42,436 nt of DNA from Candidatus Amesbacteria bacterium (GCA_027331445.1 DAHWUD010000007.1:1-42436), one strand, 5' to 3'. Positions 33,033 through 42,436 are shown, counted from the stretch's first letter. Program-made: numbers and translations. The notes: generated from the letters alone by a model not told the origin.

Positions 33033-35556
<2,524 letters not shown>

Positions 35557-35560
<4 letters not shown>

Positions 35561-37029
35561 GCCGTCAGTTTTCCGAGCCAGAAGTCCGCTCCTCTTCTGA
35601 CATCTTCCATTAAATTATTCATGGCTTCATTGCGGTTGACCGTATCGTTCACTGCCTGCATGGTCGTGGCGTCAGCCAGGTAAGCCTGCACCAGCCTCTC
35701 CGGATGATCGCCGTTCCATACTCCGGTCACCAAAAGTGCCAGCAATACCAGCTGTACGTTAAGCGGCACCACCAGAAACACCGGCTGGTCAAAAAACTTG
35801 ATCAGCTTCTCTCCCATGGCCAAAATCTGCCGGGAACTTTCTCCCAATTCCGCCCCGAACTTCAAAAAAGACTGGGTCTTCTCATAACCGGTCAGCAGAT
35901 CCAAAAGCATCCTTCCCACATCCCGCCGCAGCGGCGTCTGTGTCTGCCGTCCCACCCGGGTCACGGATACAAACGGATTCACCGCCGGCCGCCGCCCCCG
36001 AAAGAAGAGGTCACTGTCAAAATACACGTGTCCGTCCGTCATGGACATCAAGTTGGTCTGAATATAGCCCGAGATATCACCCTGCACCGTTTCTACGACA
36101 GGCATACAGGTAATCGCCGCCGTCTTCTGTCCGACTTTAAAGTACCCCGACCGCTCCATCAACTTCGAATGCACATGGAAAATATCCCCCGGATACGAGT
36201 CTCTCCCCGGAAATTTTCGGGACAACAAAGACAATTCCCGATAAAACTTGGCGTGCGTAGACATGTCATCCAACACTACCACCGCATCCCTCCCGGTATC
36301 CCTAAAATATTCCGCTATAGTCATAGCTGTATATGGGCACAGATAAATTTCCCCCGAGGCATCCTGAGAAGAAGCCGCCACCACCACCGTCTTGTCCGCC
36401 ACTTTATTGGCCGCCAAAAATTCTTCCAGCTTCCTGATTTCCGCTTTCTGCTTGCCTATGGCCGCATAAATGCAAATGTTTCCCAGCCTGGCCTGGGACA
36501 AGATAGTCTGGTTTAACAGATAGCTTTTTCCGGTCTTCCGGTCTCCCAGCACCAATTCTCTTTGTCCTCTCCCCAGCGGCACCAGCAGATCCACAATCAT
36601 CACTCCCGTCACAAACGGCTGGTCCACCCTGACCCGCGTCCCGATCCCCCCCGGAGTCACATCCACCGTCCGCCATTCGGCGATGCCGTTTCCCGCCGCC
36701 CCGGCAATCGTCCGGCCTAAGACGTCAATTGTCCGCCCCAACAATCCGTCGCCCACCGGGACTGATAATTTCCGCCCGATCCTTGTCACTCGCGTCCCAA
36801 CTTTGATAGGCTCTCTGGCAAACACCAAAATCTCCACTTCCTCGGATTTCAATGCCATTATCTGCCCCAGCTGCCCCGACTCCAGCAGCACCATTTCTCC
36901 CAACTTGACATCTGGCAGTCCTTCCGCCTGAATGATAGAAGATACCACTTTCACCACAAAACCCACCTCTCCCGAAGCTTTCAGGTAATCAGCAAACACA
37001 TTCTTTGACTGCTTATTAGTTTCCGCCAT
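35557..37029 (-). CDS. atpA: F1 ATP synthase alpha subunit
   Basis: Regulatory/catalytic partner of beta, 490 residues. GDRKTGKS is the P-loop, the Arg finger lies in VSVTRVGRQTQTPLRRDV, and YDDLSKHA is replaced by LDDMSTHAKFYRELSLL. The order of domains (beta-barrel KVGTRVTRIGRKLSVPVGDG, then the nucleotide domain, then the helical C-terminus) is normal. It overlaps atpH by 14 nt. Confidence 0.95.
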
Positions 37030-37495
37030 ATGCCATCCTTAACAATGTCTCTGCCTGCTTTGCCCACACCTTCTCCATCCTGGTTGCCAGCGAAAAATCT
37101 CCGAATTTTCCTCCGTAGGTAACCAGAGCTCCTCCTACTATCAAAGCATCTCTTTCTATATCAACAATAATTCCCGCAGCCACTTCTTTCCTGAGCTTAT
37201 CGGATATCTCCTGGACCATTTTTTCCGTTGGTTCCACTGCCAGCGTTAATCTTGCTACAGGCAGCTCTACCAGCTCCTTTTTTAATTCCCGCAAAACCTT
37301 CTGCCTCCCTTCGGCATCCTGCGGTAATCGCTGGTTTAGCACTTGAGCCACCTTGAGTCTTACCTTGGTCTTCATAACTTCCTCCCATGCTTCCGGATTC
37401 GTCCGGAACAATCCCGCCTCCAATGCCTCCGCTTCTCCCAGTAGCCTGTTCGCCTCCTCTTTGGTTCTGGTTAGTTGCCACAACTCAGAGTACAT
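37016..37495 (-). CDS. atpH: F-type ATP synthase delta subunit
   Basis: 159 residues of mostly helical sequence, with the delta/OSCP C-terminal motif DIERDALIVGGALVTYGGKF (family: D..LIGGL....G....D.S). The N-terminal helical domain is short. It joins the b stalk to F1. It overlaps atpF by 11 nt; its position between atpF and atpA is the canonical one, supporting the call. Confidence 0.85.
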   Translation of the reverse strand: MYSELWQLTRTKEEANRLLGEAEALEAGLFRTNPEAWEEVMKTKVRLKVAQVLNQRLPQDAEGRQKVLRELKKELVELPVARLTLAVEPTEKMVQEISDKLRKEVAAGIIVDIERDALIVGGALVTYGGKFGDFSLATRMEKVWAKQAETLLRMAYGGN

Positions 37496-38075
37496 TTGCC
37501 TTCTTGGCTTCCTCCAAAGCTTGCTTAATTAATTCGGGATGCTCCTCCAGTGTCAGGCTTTTAATCCCCGCCAGCCGGCAAAACTCCCTGGCCACATCCT
37601 CCGCTCTCGCTTCAAATTCCCGGATTTTAGCCGTTTTATAATCCTCAATCTGCTTGTTTGCCTCCTGTAATTGCTGATCGATTTTTACCGCTACGGACTG
37701 CTCCACCCCCACCGTCTGCTTCTCCAGTATCGACTTAAAATCGGCAATTTCGCCCATCGCCCCGCTCTCGATCGATTTTGATATATTCTGAAGCATTTCT
37801 TTATAAATATCCACCTGCTTTAAAGCCGCTTCCTGCAATCGTTTGTTCAGTTCCTCCTGATTTCCCGCTGATTCCAAATTTGCCTGGTTGAGGATCAGCA
37901 CCGCCTTATCCCGGGCCTCCTCGATCATCTTGGTCGCTTTCTCCCGGGCTTTTTCCTCAATCTCCGCCCGCGTCGCCCGCATTCCCTGGAATTTCCGCAT
38001 CAGCCTCTCGTAGGCCGCCAGCACTACGGCTAACACCAGGCTGACAATAATTAACCCCAGAAATTGGATGTCCAT
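37485..38075 (-). CDS. atpF: F-type ATP synthase b subunit
   Basis: 196 residues: an N-terminal membrane helix (QFLGLIIVSLVLAVVLAAYE) followed by a long charged helix (RATRAEIEEKAREKATKMIE; AREFCRLAGIKSLTLEEHPE at the end), the peripheral stator. The C-terminus (EHPELIKQALEEAKK) is a normal b ending. It lies 4 bp after the c-like gene. Confidence 0.88.
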   Translation of the reverse strand: MDIQFLGLIIVSLVLAVVLAAYERLMRKFQGMRATRAEIEEKAREKATKMIEEARDKAVLILNQANLESAGNQEELNKRLQEAALKQVDIYKEMLQNISKSIESGAMGEIADFKSILEKQTVGVEQSVAVKIDQQLQEANKQIEDYKTAKIREFEARAEDVAREFCRLAGIKSLTLEEHPELIKQALEEAKKANVL

Positions 38076-38079
38076 AAAA

Positions 38080-38922
<843 letters not shown>

Positions 38923-38931
38923 TCAAGCACG

Positions 38932-38953
38932 AATGTCCAAGTTTGTCCAAGTC
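38932..38953. promoter_or_regulatory. Tandem TGTCCAA site upstream of the ATP synthase promoter
   Basis: Two 10-bp units, TGTCCAAGTT and TGTCCAAGTC, one helical turn apart. The same arrangement, 20 of 22 bases identical, occurs at 39295-39316 before the MerR-type fibre gene. Confidence 0.6.
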
Positions 38954-39236: not shown

Positions 39237-39267
39237 TTGACACCTCAATTCCATATATAATTAAATA
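39237..39267 (+). promoter_or_regulatory. Promoter region of the membrane-tethered regulator gene
   Basis: TTGACA (39237-39242) is followed by AT-rich sequence offering TATAAT (13-bp spacer) or TAAATA (19-bp spacer, the long spacing typical of MerR-controlled promoters). The choice cannot be settled by eye. Confidence 0.45.
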
Positions 39268-39278
39268 TAAATTAAACA

Positions 39279-39316
39279 TGGACATCCGACATTAAATGTC
39301 CAACTTTGTCCAAGCC
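39279..39316. promoter_or_regulatory. Operator-like cluster: inverted and tandem TGTCC half-sites
   Basis: TGGACAT (39279-39285) and ATGTCCA (39296-39302) form a 7-bp inverted repeat; TGTCC recurs at 39297 and 39307, 10 bp apart. The cluster lies between the promoter and the ATG at 39324. Confidence 0.6.
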
Positions 39317-39323
39317 AAAATCC

Positions 39324-42300
39324 ATGCCCGATACTCTGCCCCGTCAACTACCCAACTCTCCGGTCACAATTCAGGAAGCGGCCGACTTTCTTGGCGTTTC
39401 CACTAAAACCCTGCGCCGGTGGGAAAAGCAGGGCCTGCTCGTTCCTGACCGCACTCCCGGAAATCAACGCCGCTATAACCGTATTCAGCTCACCACCTTT
39501 TCCCTCACCAAAAAGCAGCCTATCATCGTTCCGCCGCCTCCCGTTCTTTCCCTGCCCCACCCTGCTGCTCCTCCTCCGCCTTCGCCACATTTTCCCTTGC
39601 TTCGTTATGCCTACCTGCCTCTGATCGTTTTTGCGGTAATTATCGGCTCGGCCTTTTTCGCCTTACGTACTCAACTTCCCTCACAAGCCGCTCAAATTGC
39701 AGCTCGCGGCCTGGCCGTACTTCAACAGAGATTTCCCGCACCGCCCCGCCGGCCTGCAAACCCTCTTCATCTCAGCCAGCTCAAACTCGATAATTCCCGC
39801 GTTCTGGCCGCTCAGACCTCGGCTGAAAGCTTCGTTTTCAACGTCAATGTCCCCAGCATCTTTAGAGCCGAAGCCACAGCCAGCTCCACCCTGGATGTTC
39901 TCGGCAATCTTACGGCCCCCAATATCATCTATGGGATTAGAGCTGGTCAGGGCATTGCCGTTTCCCCGGGTCAAACACCCACTATTTCTCTTATCAATCC
40001 CGTCAACAATTTAAAATCTTTCTCCACTTTTTCAGTTTCCGGCCAATCTGACGTGGTTGCGGGAAATAATTCCGACAAGCTCACCCTGATCGCGGGATCC
40101 AATGTCTCCCTTACGACCGATGCGGTCAATAAAACCGTCACCATCTCCTCCTCCACCCTGGGTACCCCGGTATCCATCGGTAATGGCGGCACCGGTCTGT
40201 CAAGTTTTACCACCGGCGATATCCTCTATGCCTCGGCCACCAACACTCTCAAAGCCCTTCCCATCGGCACCGCCGGCCAACTGCTTGCCGTCTCCGGAGG
40301 TGTCCCTGCCTGGATCACCAGATCAACTGCCTGTGCCGGCAGTTGTCTAGGAACCGCTCCCACAAGTACACAGACTATCACACCCACTCAAACAACCGCT
40401 ATTGGGCTAAGTGTCGCCCAGGCCGCCTCCGGTTCCGTAGACATTTTCAACATCACCAACAACGCCGGCTCTACTAAATACCTCGAAATAGACAGCAGCG
40501 GCAACACTATCGTCAATGGCAATCTCAATGTCGGCAATCTCACCGCTTCCTCCCCCGTCTTCACCGACTCCGGTAAAAATCTGACCTCCACGGGTGTCGT
40601 CTCCGAGATCCACGGGGGTACCAACCAATCCACCTATACTACCGGTGACCTCCTCTACGCCTCGTCTGCTAATACCTTATCCAAACTTTCCATCGGCACC
40701 GCCGGCCAACTGCTTGCCGTTTCCAGTGGCGTTCCCGCCTGGACGACTTCCAGCGCAGTCAACTACTGGCAGCTTGCTGGAGATGTTCTGGCTCCCGGCG
40801 GATCTGCTACCGTAACAGACCGCCTAGTCCTGGGCGGGCAAACATCCACTCCCTTCCAGTTTGAAGTCAATGGCAGCCAAATTGGCAAGGCTTTGGTCTC
40901 TCTAAATGAAACGGGTAATCAAAACATCCTGGTGGCTTCTGCTTCCGGTTCAAACGTATTCACACTAGATCGTTCTGGTGATGCTTCCATGTCAGGAAAC
41001 CTTACCCTCAACTCTCCCGCCACTATCGCCACTACCAACAAACAAACCCTGACCTTAGGCGACACTAATACCGGCAACATCATCTTTAGTGGCGGTAATA
41101 TTGGTATCGGCACCAATGTCTCCCCCAAAACTGCATTAGAGCTAAACGGAGCCATGTATTTAGACTCCATAAGCATTCCCTCCACTCCCACCTATCAACT
41201 CTACAACAACGCAGGCTCTCTCTATTGGGGTTCCGACACAGTCTGTACCTCCAGCAGCGGCTGCGCTGCCACCGGCACTGTTCTCACTTCCGGCACTCCC
41301 AGTAGCGGCCAGGTTACTTTCTTCCAGGATCCAACCCACATCACTGGAAATAGCAGTTTCTTTTGGGACATCACCAATCACCTCCTTGGTCTGGGTACCA
41401 ATTCTCCTACCTCCATGCTCTCAGTCAATGGCGCTGTCACGGGCAAAGCCCTCGCGTATTTCAACGAGACCGGCGACCAAAAGATCCTGGTCGCTTCCGC
41501 CTCCGGGGTCAACGTCTTTAGCATGGATAAAAGCGGGAACTTAACCGCCGGCACTTACAACGGCCAGACCATCAGTAGCGCCGCTTCCTTCACCGGCAGC
41601 GCCACCGTCGCCAACGGCTTTACCGTCACCGCCGGCACCATCACCACTCCCTTGGCTACCGGCGCCCTCTACAGCAATTCCGGCACCCTCACTTCCGAAG
41701 CCCAGTTAGCGGTAACCCGCGGCGGCACCAACTCGACTGCTGTTCCCGCCAATGGCCAGGTGGCCTACGGCACCGGCACCGCTTACCAGTTCACCTCCGG
41801 GGGCACCACCGGCTATGTCCTCTCCTTTAACTCCGGCTCCGCTCCCACCTGGATCTCTCCCACGGGCCTGGGTACCAACTACTGGCAGGATACCAGCCAC
41901 GTCCTGGCTCCCGGGGGCAATGCCACCGTCACCGACCAGCTGGTCCTGGGCGGCAACACCACCACGGCTTTCCAGTTTGAAGTCAGCGGCAATCTGGCCG
42001 GTAAAGCTTTAGCCTCCTTAAACTACACCGGCACCGACCAGAAGATCCTGGTCGCTTCCGCCTCCGGGGTCAACGTCTTCCAGCTCGGCCGCACCGGCAC
42101 TCTGACCGTCGGCGGCACCTCCGGCAGCAATACCGGCGCCGTTGCCTTCCAGGACGGCTCTGATACCAATACTGTCACCATCCAGGCCGGTGCCACCTCT
42201 CCTTCCTCTTACACTCTTACTCTCCCCACCGCCCAGGCCAGCGGCGCCCAAATTCTCCAAAACAATGGTTCCGGGGTCCTCTCCTGGGTTACCAGCGGTA

Positions 42301-42436
42301 CCAACTACTGGCAGCTTGCCGGCAATGTCCTGGCTCCTGCCACTGCCACAAATCAATTAGTCCTGGGCGGCAACACCACCACGGCTTTCCAGTTTGAAGT
42401 CAGCGGCAATCTGGCCGGTAAAGCTTTAGCCTCCTT
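39324..42436 (+). CDS. Membrane-tethered MerR-type regulator with giant tail-fibre-like exported region (3' end outside window)
   Basis: The frame stays open for 1037 codons to the window edge. Residues 14-58 are a MerR-type winged helix: VTIQEAADFLGVSTKTLRRW, then EKQGLLVPDRTPGNQRRY. A Pro-rich cytoplasmic linker follows, then one helix at about 93-114 (RYAYLPLIVFAVIIGSAFFA). From about 120 on the sequence is Gly/Ser/Thr/Asn-rich beta repeats like phage tail fibres and long surface fibres, with repeating units NYWQLAG.VLAPGG, LVLGG.T.T.FQFEV.G, KAL.SLN.TG, KILVASASGVNVF and GNLT. With the basic HTH inside and the repeats outside, this reads as a one-component membrane-integrated transcription factor. 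The C-terminus, where such fibres often carry a self-cleaving chaperone domain, is not visible. Confidence 0.75.
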   Translation, partial: MPDTLPRQLPNSPVTIQEAADFLGVSTKTLRRWEKQGLLVPDRTPGNQRRYNRIQLTTFSLTKKQPIIVPPPPVLSLPHPAAPPPPSPHFPLLRYAYLPLIVFAVIIGSAFFALRTQLPSQAAQIAARGLAVLQQRFPAPPRRPANPLHLSQLKLDNSRVLAAQTSAESFVFNVNVPSIFRAEATASSTLDVLGNLTAPNIIYGIRAGQGIAVSPGQTPTISLINPVNNLKSFSTFSVSGQSDVVAGNNSDKLTLIAGSNVSLTTDAVNKTVTISSSTLGTPVSIGNGGTGLSSFTTGDILYASATNTLKALPIGTAGQLLAVSGGVPAWITRSTACAGSCLGTAPTSTQTITPTQTTAIGLSVAQAASGSVDIFNITNNAGSTKYLEIDSSGNTIVNGNLNVGNLTASSPVFTDSGKNLTSTGVVSEIHGGTNQSTYTTGDLLYASSANTLSKLSIGTAGQLLAVSSGVPAWTTSSAVNYWQLAGDVLAPGGSATVTDRLVLGGQTSTPFQFEVNGSQIGKALVSLNETGNQNILVASASGSNVFTLDRSGDASMSGNLTLNSPATIATTNKQTLTLGDTNTGNIIFSGGNIGIGTNVSPKTALELNGAMYLDSISIPSTPTYQLYNNAGSLYWGSDTVCTSSSGCAATGTVLTSGTPSSGQVTFFQDPTHITGNSSFFWDITNHLLGLGTNSPTSMLSVNGAVTGKALAYFNETGDQKILVASASGVNVFSMDKSGNLTAGTYNGQTISSAASFTGSATVANGFTVTAGTITTPLATGALYSNSGTLTSEAQLAVTRGGTNSTAVPANGQVAYGTGTAYQFTSGGTTGYVLSFNSGSAPTWISPTGLGTNYWQDTSHVLAPGGNATVTDQLVLGGNTTTAFQFEVSGNLAGKALASLNYTGTDQKILVASASGVNVFQLGRTGTLTVGGTSGSNTGAVAFQDGSDTNTVTIQAGATSPSSYTLTLPTAQASGAQILQNNGSGVLSWVTSGTNYWQLAGNVLAPATATNQLVLGGNTTTAFQFEVSGNLAGKALAS
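41943..42436 (+). repeat. Exact 77-bp repeats inside the fibre gene, 417 bp apart
   Basis: Positions 41943-42019 and 42360-42436 are identical over 77 bp (the second copy reaches the window end). They encode LVLGGNTTTAFQFEVSGNLA with GKALAS. A further 38-bp exact repeat starting AAGATCCTGGTCGCTTCC occurs near 41480 and 42041. Confidence 0.9.

Follow-up and report, generated by a model that had tools for sequence, protein, structure and literature searches.

A BldC-like DNA-binding domain fused to a membrane-anchored, phage-type fibre and linked to an F1 operon with a c-like protein devoid of the ion-binding carboxylate in Candidatus Amesbacteria

Why should a DNA-binding domain be part of the same polypeptide as a giant exported fibre? 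The question is raised by a gene at the end of a 42,436-nucleotide stretch of Candidatus Amesbacteria DNA (GCA_027331445.1 DAHWUD010000007.1:1-42436), which we refer to as the window. The source genome comprises 925 kb, a small size that is compatible with an assignment to the CPR. The original prediction saw in the gene a MerR-type transcription factor tethered to the membrane, whose fibre might touch a surface and signal towards DNA. The features discussed below are collected in Table 1.

Table 1. Features of the fibre gene, the intergenic region and the divergent operon (positions in the window).
Feature	Position	Strand	Basis and remarks
F1 beta subunit	33292..34722	-	PF00006, 1e-58; Walker A GGAGVGKT and GERTREG present
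F1 gamma subunit	34715..35560	-	PF00231, 2e-21
F1 alpha subunit	35557..37029	-	PF00006, 6e-65
delta/OSCP-like subunit	37016..37495	-	PF00213, 3e-7
b-like stator protein with a TM at its N-terminus and a coiled coil	37485..38075	-	assigned by position; no Pfam match
X0: signal peptide, exported phage-appendage-like beta domain, c-subunit-like hairpin, GRNP loop	38080..38922	-	model, alignment
Second repeat copy TGTCCAAGTTTGTCCAAG	38934..38951	.	some 12 bp upstream of where the divergent X0 frame begins
TTGACA, possible -35 box for the fibre gene	39237..39242	+	sequence
Operator-like direct repeat TGTCCAACTTTGTCCAAG (other strand CTTGGACAAAGTTGGACA)	39297..39314	.	just upstream of the fibre start
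Fibre gene, BldC-like HTH + TM + fibre	39324..42436	+	cut at its 3' end by the scaffold gap; TTG 39306 as an alternative start further upstream
BldC-like / MerR-type winged HTH	39360..39479	+	PF00376, E = 4e-15; best PDB sequence and fold matches BldC 6amk/6ama; contact residues kept; AlphaFold2 pLDDT 93-95
Pro-rich linker PIIVPPPPVLSLPHPAAPPPPSPHFPLL, residues 66-93	39519..39602	+	translation
Single transmembrane (TM) helix, predicted N-in / C-out	39609..39665	+	translation; AlphaFold2 helix 98-117; corresponding segment in all 40 homologues
Extracellular fibre, opening with the conserved 'LTAPNIIYGIRAGQGI..GQTPTIS' and continuing in repeats of phage-fibre type	39666..42436	+	translation; PHROG tail spike / tail fibre matches in homologue L037

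From its ATG, the frame continues over 1037 residues to the end of the window without a stop codon. An open frame of 3.1 kb that begins with a recognisable helix-turn-helix (HTH) domain lies far beyond what chance would produce. On the contig, a scaffold gap of 100 N (contig positions 42437-42536) follows and interrupts the frame, so that the gene is incomplete at its C-terminus; roughly 100 further bases beyond this gap belong to the same repeat family as the fibre. The translation bears out the Pro-rich linker and the one TM helix (about residues 96-114) that had been read from the sequence originally, followed by more than 900 residues of repeats rich in Ser, Thr, Gly and Asn. AlphaFold2, applied to the N-terminal 330 residues, modelled the HTH with high confidence, and the fibre part with low confidence and unresolved as a monomer.

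Relatives show that this fusion is not peculiar to one assembly. The first 165 residues were searched against 187 related genomes and matched 118 of them; because many of these matches were bare HTHs, we picked loci with long frames and fetched 40. In each of the 40 homologues HTH, TM and fibre are encoded in a single frame, of which the longest comprises 4721 residues and 20 are terminated by a stop codon. The layout is the same throughout: one or two HTHs, a strong TM segment some 80-280 residues in, and then a fibre whose length runs from several hundred to over 4000 residues. An assembly chimera of HTH and fibre, which the original prediction had itself named as a finding that would undo it, is ruled out by this fusion in 40 of 40 homologues from other genomes. 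A scan of contigs with the fibre N-terminus returned as its sole match an unrelated Lentzea sequence. Five complete homologues (L037, L040, L047, L048 and L055) end in a Peptidase_S74 domain with the motif S-D-x-R-x-K, and K1-lyase_C, LamG-type lectin, SH3, Kelch and Peptidase_G2-like domains are also found at C-termini of complete frames. The proposed combination of a membrane-tethered DNA-binding protein with an exported phage-type fibre is thus widespread among relatives. The S74 domain that had been anticipated for the missing end of the gene is present in the five relatives, and a profile search (PF13884) of the source genome gave no match.

The HTH itself belongs to the MerR fold, as the Pfam MerR profile indicates, and its closest likeness is to BldC. 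BldC-DNA complexes are its best matches in the PDB both by sequence (6amk, 6ama) and by fold in Foldseek (rmsd about 1.5 Å), the fold neighbours also including RacA. The top NCBIfam model is HTH_BldC, with a score of 30.7 bits that falls below the cut-off of 77, and for this reason we speak of a BldC-like domain and not of a BldC member. The residues with which BldC contacts DNA are largely kept among the 50 HTH units aligned (T27 in 50, R30 in 41, W31 in 46 and R47 in 49). In the patch F21/V23/W31/L43, through which BldC associates head to tail, F21 is replaced by Leu, the Val and Trp are kept, and position 43 is mostly Pro, Ala or Ser and rarely Leu. The Pro linker and the TM helix follow directly after the HTH, with no dimerisation coiled coil or effector domain in between. 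The MerR-type assignment of the original prediction therefore stands as regards the fold, but gives way to BldC in sequence, structure and residues; a classical MerR sensor is rejected, as the C-terminal coiled coil or effector domain is missing and the putative site is a direct repeat rather than a palindrome.

BldC forms head-to-tail oligomers on direct repeats, for instance on 5'-CAATTCGGACAATTCGGACA-3' (PMC5859096). A comparable 18-bp repeat lies upstream of the fibre gene, and its consensus has exactly two exact matches in the 925-kb genome, one beside each of the two divergent starts. When a looser pattern, TGTCYAAN{3,4}TGTCYAA, was searched in the 187 genomes, 21 matches were obtained, a total equal to that of the reversed control (21), so that only the positions of the matches are informative. 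Seven of the 21 are located at most 400 bp upstream of BldC-fibre genes, where about 0.003 would be expected by chance; two of these seven are in the source genome, from which the pattern was taken, and five are in other genomes (G003, G026, G078, G130 and G182). A second comparison, scored independently of the repeat sequence, covered the 40 regions upstream of the fibre gene in the window and of its homologues. Of these, 12, 9 and 11 held direct repeats spaced at 10, 11 and 12 bp, respectively, compared with 1.5-2 in shuffles, and repeats at 10-12 bp were present in 62% of the upstream regions versus 25% of GC-matched segments from the same loci. Spacings of 7-9 or 13-18 bp gave no clear excess over the controls, and several of the 40 regions carry no clear direct repeat. 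A group of four homologues (L050, L052, L054 and L057) combines another repeat unit, AAATCTATG with a period of 10, with another recognition helix, in which SIDT or HIDT replaces STKT. That repeat unit and recognition helix differ together is as expected if the HTH reads the repeat.

The HTH is likely to bind DNA, in line with the role first proposed for it, since it retains the contact residues of BldC and since BldC-like direct repeats lie at the promoter of its own gene. HTH domains at the membrane can also serve other ends: in RodZ, likewise an HTH-TM protein, the HTH binds MreB. By this precedent, and with RacA among its fold neighbours, the domain might be a module that anchors a protein or the chromosome, fixing the base of the fibre or placing the locus at the membrane, with regulation as a secondary effect. 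We consider this distinctly unlikely, since R30 and W31 of the recognition helix and R47 of the wing are conserved, and since spaced direct repeats at promoters are unexpected for a pure protein-binding domain. The best reading of the sequences is that the HTH would regulate its own gene and jointly control the divergent operon; it is supported by the retained contact residues and by BldC-like repeats that sit at both divergent starts and are enriched upstream of homologues. Repression is slightly favoured, because in the window and in the closest relatives the repeats lie between the promoter and the start codon. As for the promoter, the possible -35 box is accompanied by no clear -10 box in the window. 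Four relatives (L062, L063, L064 and L066) have the promoter TTGACA-N19-TATAAT, and of the 24 upstream regions that could be scored, 19 have a spacer of 18-21 bp. Such a long spacer is suggestive of MerR-type promoters, but we left it out of the argument, as the window's own -10 box is unclear.

What, then, would the second repeat control? The adjoining ATPase operon, which the original prediction does not mention, runs divergently from the fibre gene in the order X0, b-like, delta, alpha, gamma and beta. X0 has no significant match in Pfam, NCBIfam or PHROG. Its model (pLDDT 90) comprises a signal helix and, besides an exported beta domain, a helical hairpin that matches the ATP synthase c subunit 9itt_I with a TM score of 0.88 on the target and an rmsd of 1.2 Å over 67 columns. 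All 29 homologues compared share an unchanged cytosolic loop, GRNP, and none has an acidic residue in helix 2, where the ion-binding Glu/Asp of the c subunit sits. As modelled, X0 thus shows a c-type fold from which the ion-binding carboxylate is absent. The exported domain resembles in its fold the preneck appendage and head decoration proteins of phages, and its profile also matches domains within 11 of the 40 fibre proteins. The operon contains no a-subunit gene and no recognised epsilon subunit. Profiles for the a (PF00119) and c (PF00137) subunits found no match in the source genome, and matched control genomes as expected; as the source genome is 94% complete, an Fo may have been missed. 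Apart from the alpha and beta genes of the operon, its sole ATP-synt_ab match is a weaker one on a different contig, which is probably Rho.

The association of this operon with the fibre extends well beyond the window. Of 380 genomes sampled from the whole phylum, 140 have a match to the X0 profile, part of these matches being the exported domain inside fibres. Full-length X0 and a BldC-fibre are both present in 43 of the 187 genomes, and in 35 of these 43 they are at most 9 kb apart. Only two arrangements occur among the 35, namely divergent genes (20) and a fibre gene after the F1 operon on the same strand (15). The pairing is found in other classes of the phylum as well. Some fibres adjacent to X0 begin with another MerR-like N-terminus (L168, L162 and possibly L169), and other adjacent fibre homologues have no HTH (L157, L167, L164 and L166). 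Because of the latter, the HTH would be an accessory of the fibre-ATPase module, for which DNA binding is not essential.

Could the neighbour nevertheless be a normal ATP synthase whose c subunit has diverged, beside which the fibre lies merely by incidental genome order? Its alpha, beta, gamma and delta subunits do match their own Pfam families, and many relatives do carry true ATP synthase genes. A true a subunit is encoded elsewhere in 45 of 64 X0 genomes, so that X0-F1 would constitute a second, distinct system in most carriers; in the remaining 19, including the source genome, none was detected. However, an operon without an a gene, a c-like protein without a carboxylate but with an exported phage-like domain, and linkage to the fibre in just two arrangements make the ordinary enzyme very unlikely. 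Membership among the F1Fo ATP synthases was rejected on the acid-free helix 2 and on the absence of PF00119 and PF00137 matches from the source genome. A viral source of the fibre has to be weighed too, namely a prophage or phage-remnant tail fibre to which an HTH was fused by chance. The fibre repeats would fit it, as would one homologue (L037), which has S74 and whose fibre matches PHROGs of phage tail-spike and tail-fibre. We regard such a remnant as extremely improbable, given that neither the HTH-TM-fibre protein nor X0 is present in IMG/VR, where HTH matches were short HTH proteins or recombinases without a TM, and that linkage to a cellular F1 operon is conserved across the phylum.

The reading that we favour, and consider fairly probable, is a self-regulated surface fibre that works with an Fo-less rotary ATPase, the BldC-like HTH acting at both promoters. 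A giant phage-derived fibre, probably trimeric, would be anchored at the cell surface by its one TM helix, while its cytosolic winged HTH would recognise direct repeats arranged head to tail, both at its own promoter and at that of X0/F1. Expression of fibre and operon may in this way follow the amount or the assembly state of the membrane-held fibre. The product of the operon would be a rotary ATPase made of F1, b, delta and the c-type rotor X0, which has no ion-binding carboxylate and would bear its phage-appendage-like domain on the outside. Fibre and ATPase might then act as one module of the cell surface, plausibly an ATP-driven attachment or surface machine. Against this reading count the upstream regions without a clear repeat, the partly kept head-to-tail patch, the HTH_BldC score below its cut-off, the X0-adjacent fibres that lack an HTH, and the true a subunit in 45 of the X0 genomes. 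We speculate further, although with more doubt than belief, that this is a phylum-wide ATP-driven machine, in which the F1 motor turns or works a c-type rotor whose exterior phage-appendage domains engage a giant fibre tethered through the membrane to its promoter by the BldC-like head; host-dependent, ultra-small bacteria would thereby unite attachment, force and gene expression in a single module.

A different account would make of the protein a one-component signal transducer of the membrane, which resembles ToxR or CadC or acts by regulated proteolysis; contact of the fibre tip with a host cell would change transcription through the HTH. It draws on the HTH-in, fibre-out layout of 40 of 40 homologues, on the LamG, SH3, Kelch and K1-lyase_C domains near some C-termini, which suggest binding functions, and on the operator-like repeats at the gene's own promoter. 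This account appears unlikely to us: no sensor or site-2 protease site was identified, the only targets found are the gene itself and its neighbour, a long flexible fibre conducts conformational change poorly, and S74, if present, is distal to the TM and unable to free the HTH. The last point also decides against the idea of a release as in MYRF. Because S74 lies beyond the TM in all five homologues that carry it and is not matched in the source genome, we reject such a release; self-cleavage at this position would shed the outer tip and the HTH would stay on the membrane.

Returning to the fibre-ATPase module, a search of the accessible literature found no description of this fibre or of X0. 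Two reports come close to parts of it. In Saccharimonadia, genomes that encode just the F1 part of the ATPase have been noted, to which the accessible portion of the report assigns no function (PMC9166423), and ProAD contains 20 candidate F/N-ATPases whose c subunits are without the acid, likewise with no function assigned in the accessible text (PMC11738941). The means by which ultra-small, host-dependent bacteria hold on to their hosts and power their surfaces are a largely open field, for which a conserved module of fibre, Fo-less ATPase and DNA-binding head supplies named genes, sites and testable predictions. The pairing of X0/F1 with the fibre may represent an undescribed, self-regulated surface attachment machine that recurs across the phylum. 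If this is true, a DNA-binding domain within a surface fibre would offer the cell a novel means to count its appendages at a promoter. The annotation 'F-type ATPase' in such genomes may also not imply ATP synthesis, since the sole F1 operon of the source genome lacks a recognisable a subunit, and its c-like protein is devoid of the acid that would bind the ion.

How does the locus compare with known systems? ToxR and CadC combine an OmpR-type winged HTH with a small periplasmic sensor. They share with the fibre protein a cytosolic winged HTH, a single TM and an exported C-terminal part, and to this extent the ToxR-type layout proposed originally is upheld; the HTH here is of the MerR/BldC and not of the OmpR type, and the place of the sensor is taken by a phage fibre whose length ranges from about 700 to over 4000 residues. 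MYRF, a eukaryotic membrane transcription factor with a phage ICA/S74 domain, has the order DBD-ICA-TM, in which self-cleavage frees the DNA-binding domain (PMC3742443, PMC3742440, PMC8326128). DNA-binding domain, TM and, in some homologues, the S74 chaperone are likewise united in one protein here, but in the order HTH-TM-fibre-S74, and the source genome is without S74.

The BldC protein of Streptomyces is similar in its MerR-like winged HTH without coiled coil or effector domain, in its DNA-contact residues and in the direct repeats, about one helical turn apart, that accompany it; the repeats are also alike in sequence, with ..TTCGGACAATTCGGACA for BldC and CTTGGACAAAGTTGGACA in the window (PMC5859096). 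BldC is, however, a soluble protein of 68 residues (PMC5859096), whereas the domain described here continues into a linker, a TM helix and then a giant fibre, and it keeps the L43/F21 patch only partly. The chimeric fibre proteins of Bdellovibrio are also phage-like fibres of a bacterium, and let this predator recognise other cells; in contrast to the present fibres, the accessible part of that report describes for them neither a DNA-binding domain nor a TM anchor nor a linkage to an ATPase (PMC10769870).

A last comparison concerns the F1-like X0 ATPases of Mycoplasma, which are linked to gliding and to the MIB-MIP system, whose function depends on the F1-like ATPase (PMC12994834, PMC8406192). 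Types 2 and 3 are encoded by seven-gene clusters for alpha, beta, gamma and epsilon-like subunits and three proteins unrelated to a, b and c, the X0 proteins having no similarity to these subunits (PMC3369863). The system described here differs in its c-like X0, in its b-like and delta-like genes, in its lack of a recognised epsilon and in a partner that is a fibre with a DNA-binding domain; membership in Type 2/3 is ruled out by the c-like X0, the delta-like subunit and the unrecognised epsilon. Both systems nonetheless combine an F1 paralogue without Fo, a linkage to surface proteins and host-dependent bacteria of small genome size, and by this analogy the Mycoplasma ATPase would be the closest functional counterpart of the X0/F1 module.

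X0, the first gene of the F1 ATPase operon divergent from the fibre gene, occupies the place of the c subunit in that operon, and its product matched no family model. Neither the a nor the c subunit of ATP synthase was detected in the whole genome, which is 94% complete, and an ion-driven ATP synthase is apparently absent from it. Fibres linked to X0 in related genomes (L loci) differ at their N-termini. A MerR-like type different from that of the window's fibre reads FGKGDPxNRLRYYTKIGLLP (in L169 by eye only) and is in one case present in tandem.

X0 and X0-linked fibres
Feature	Position	Strand	N-terminus or architecture
X0	window 38080-38922	-	c-subunit-like hairpin without carboxylate, fused to exported phage-appendage-like domain
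HTH-less fibre adjoining X0	L157:9090-13595		TM or signal helix
HTH-less fibre adjoining X0	L167:11379-17885		TM or signal helix
HTH-less fibre adjoining X0	L164:6814-9294		TM or signal helix
HTH-less fibre adjoining X0	L166:10632-12242		TM or signal helix
X0-linked fibre	L168:2130-9251		different MerR-like
X0-linked fibre	L162:4244-6466		different MerR-like
X0-linked fibre	L169:14359-17295		different MerR-like (similarity by eye only)

Around the start codons of four homologues (L039, L050, L052, L053), GACGGA lies upstream of the gene and TCCGTC just within it, two motifs with the potential to base-pair over that codon. CTGCCC/CTGTCC recurs close to the start codon of other homologues, regardless of frame. 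A TGTCCAA repeat array near position 1501 of L093 (G067:C2:141321) is translated as a repeated VGQ-L-KSW peptide and adjoins a serine-recombinase-like gene.

The window's own genome encodes a second BldC-like HTH (L005, contig C12:1-2076), within a soluble 207-aa frame that adjoins a repetitive beta-helix-like frame; here the HTH is apparently fused to a GHKL/HATPase-like domain.
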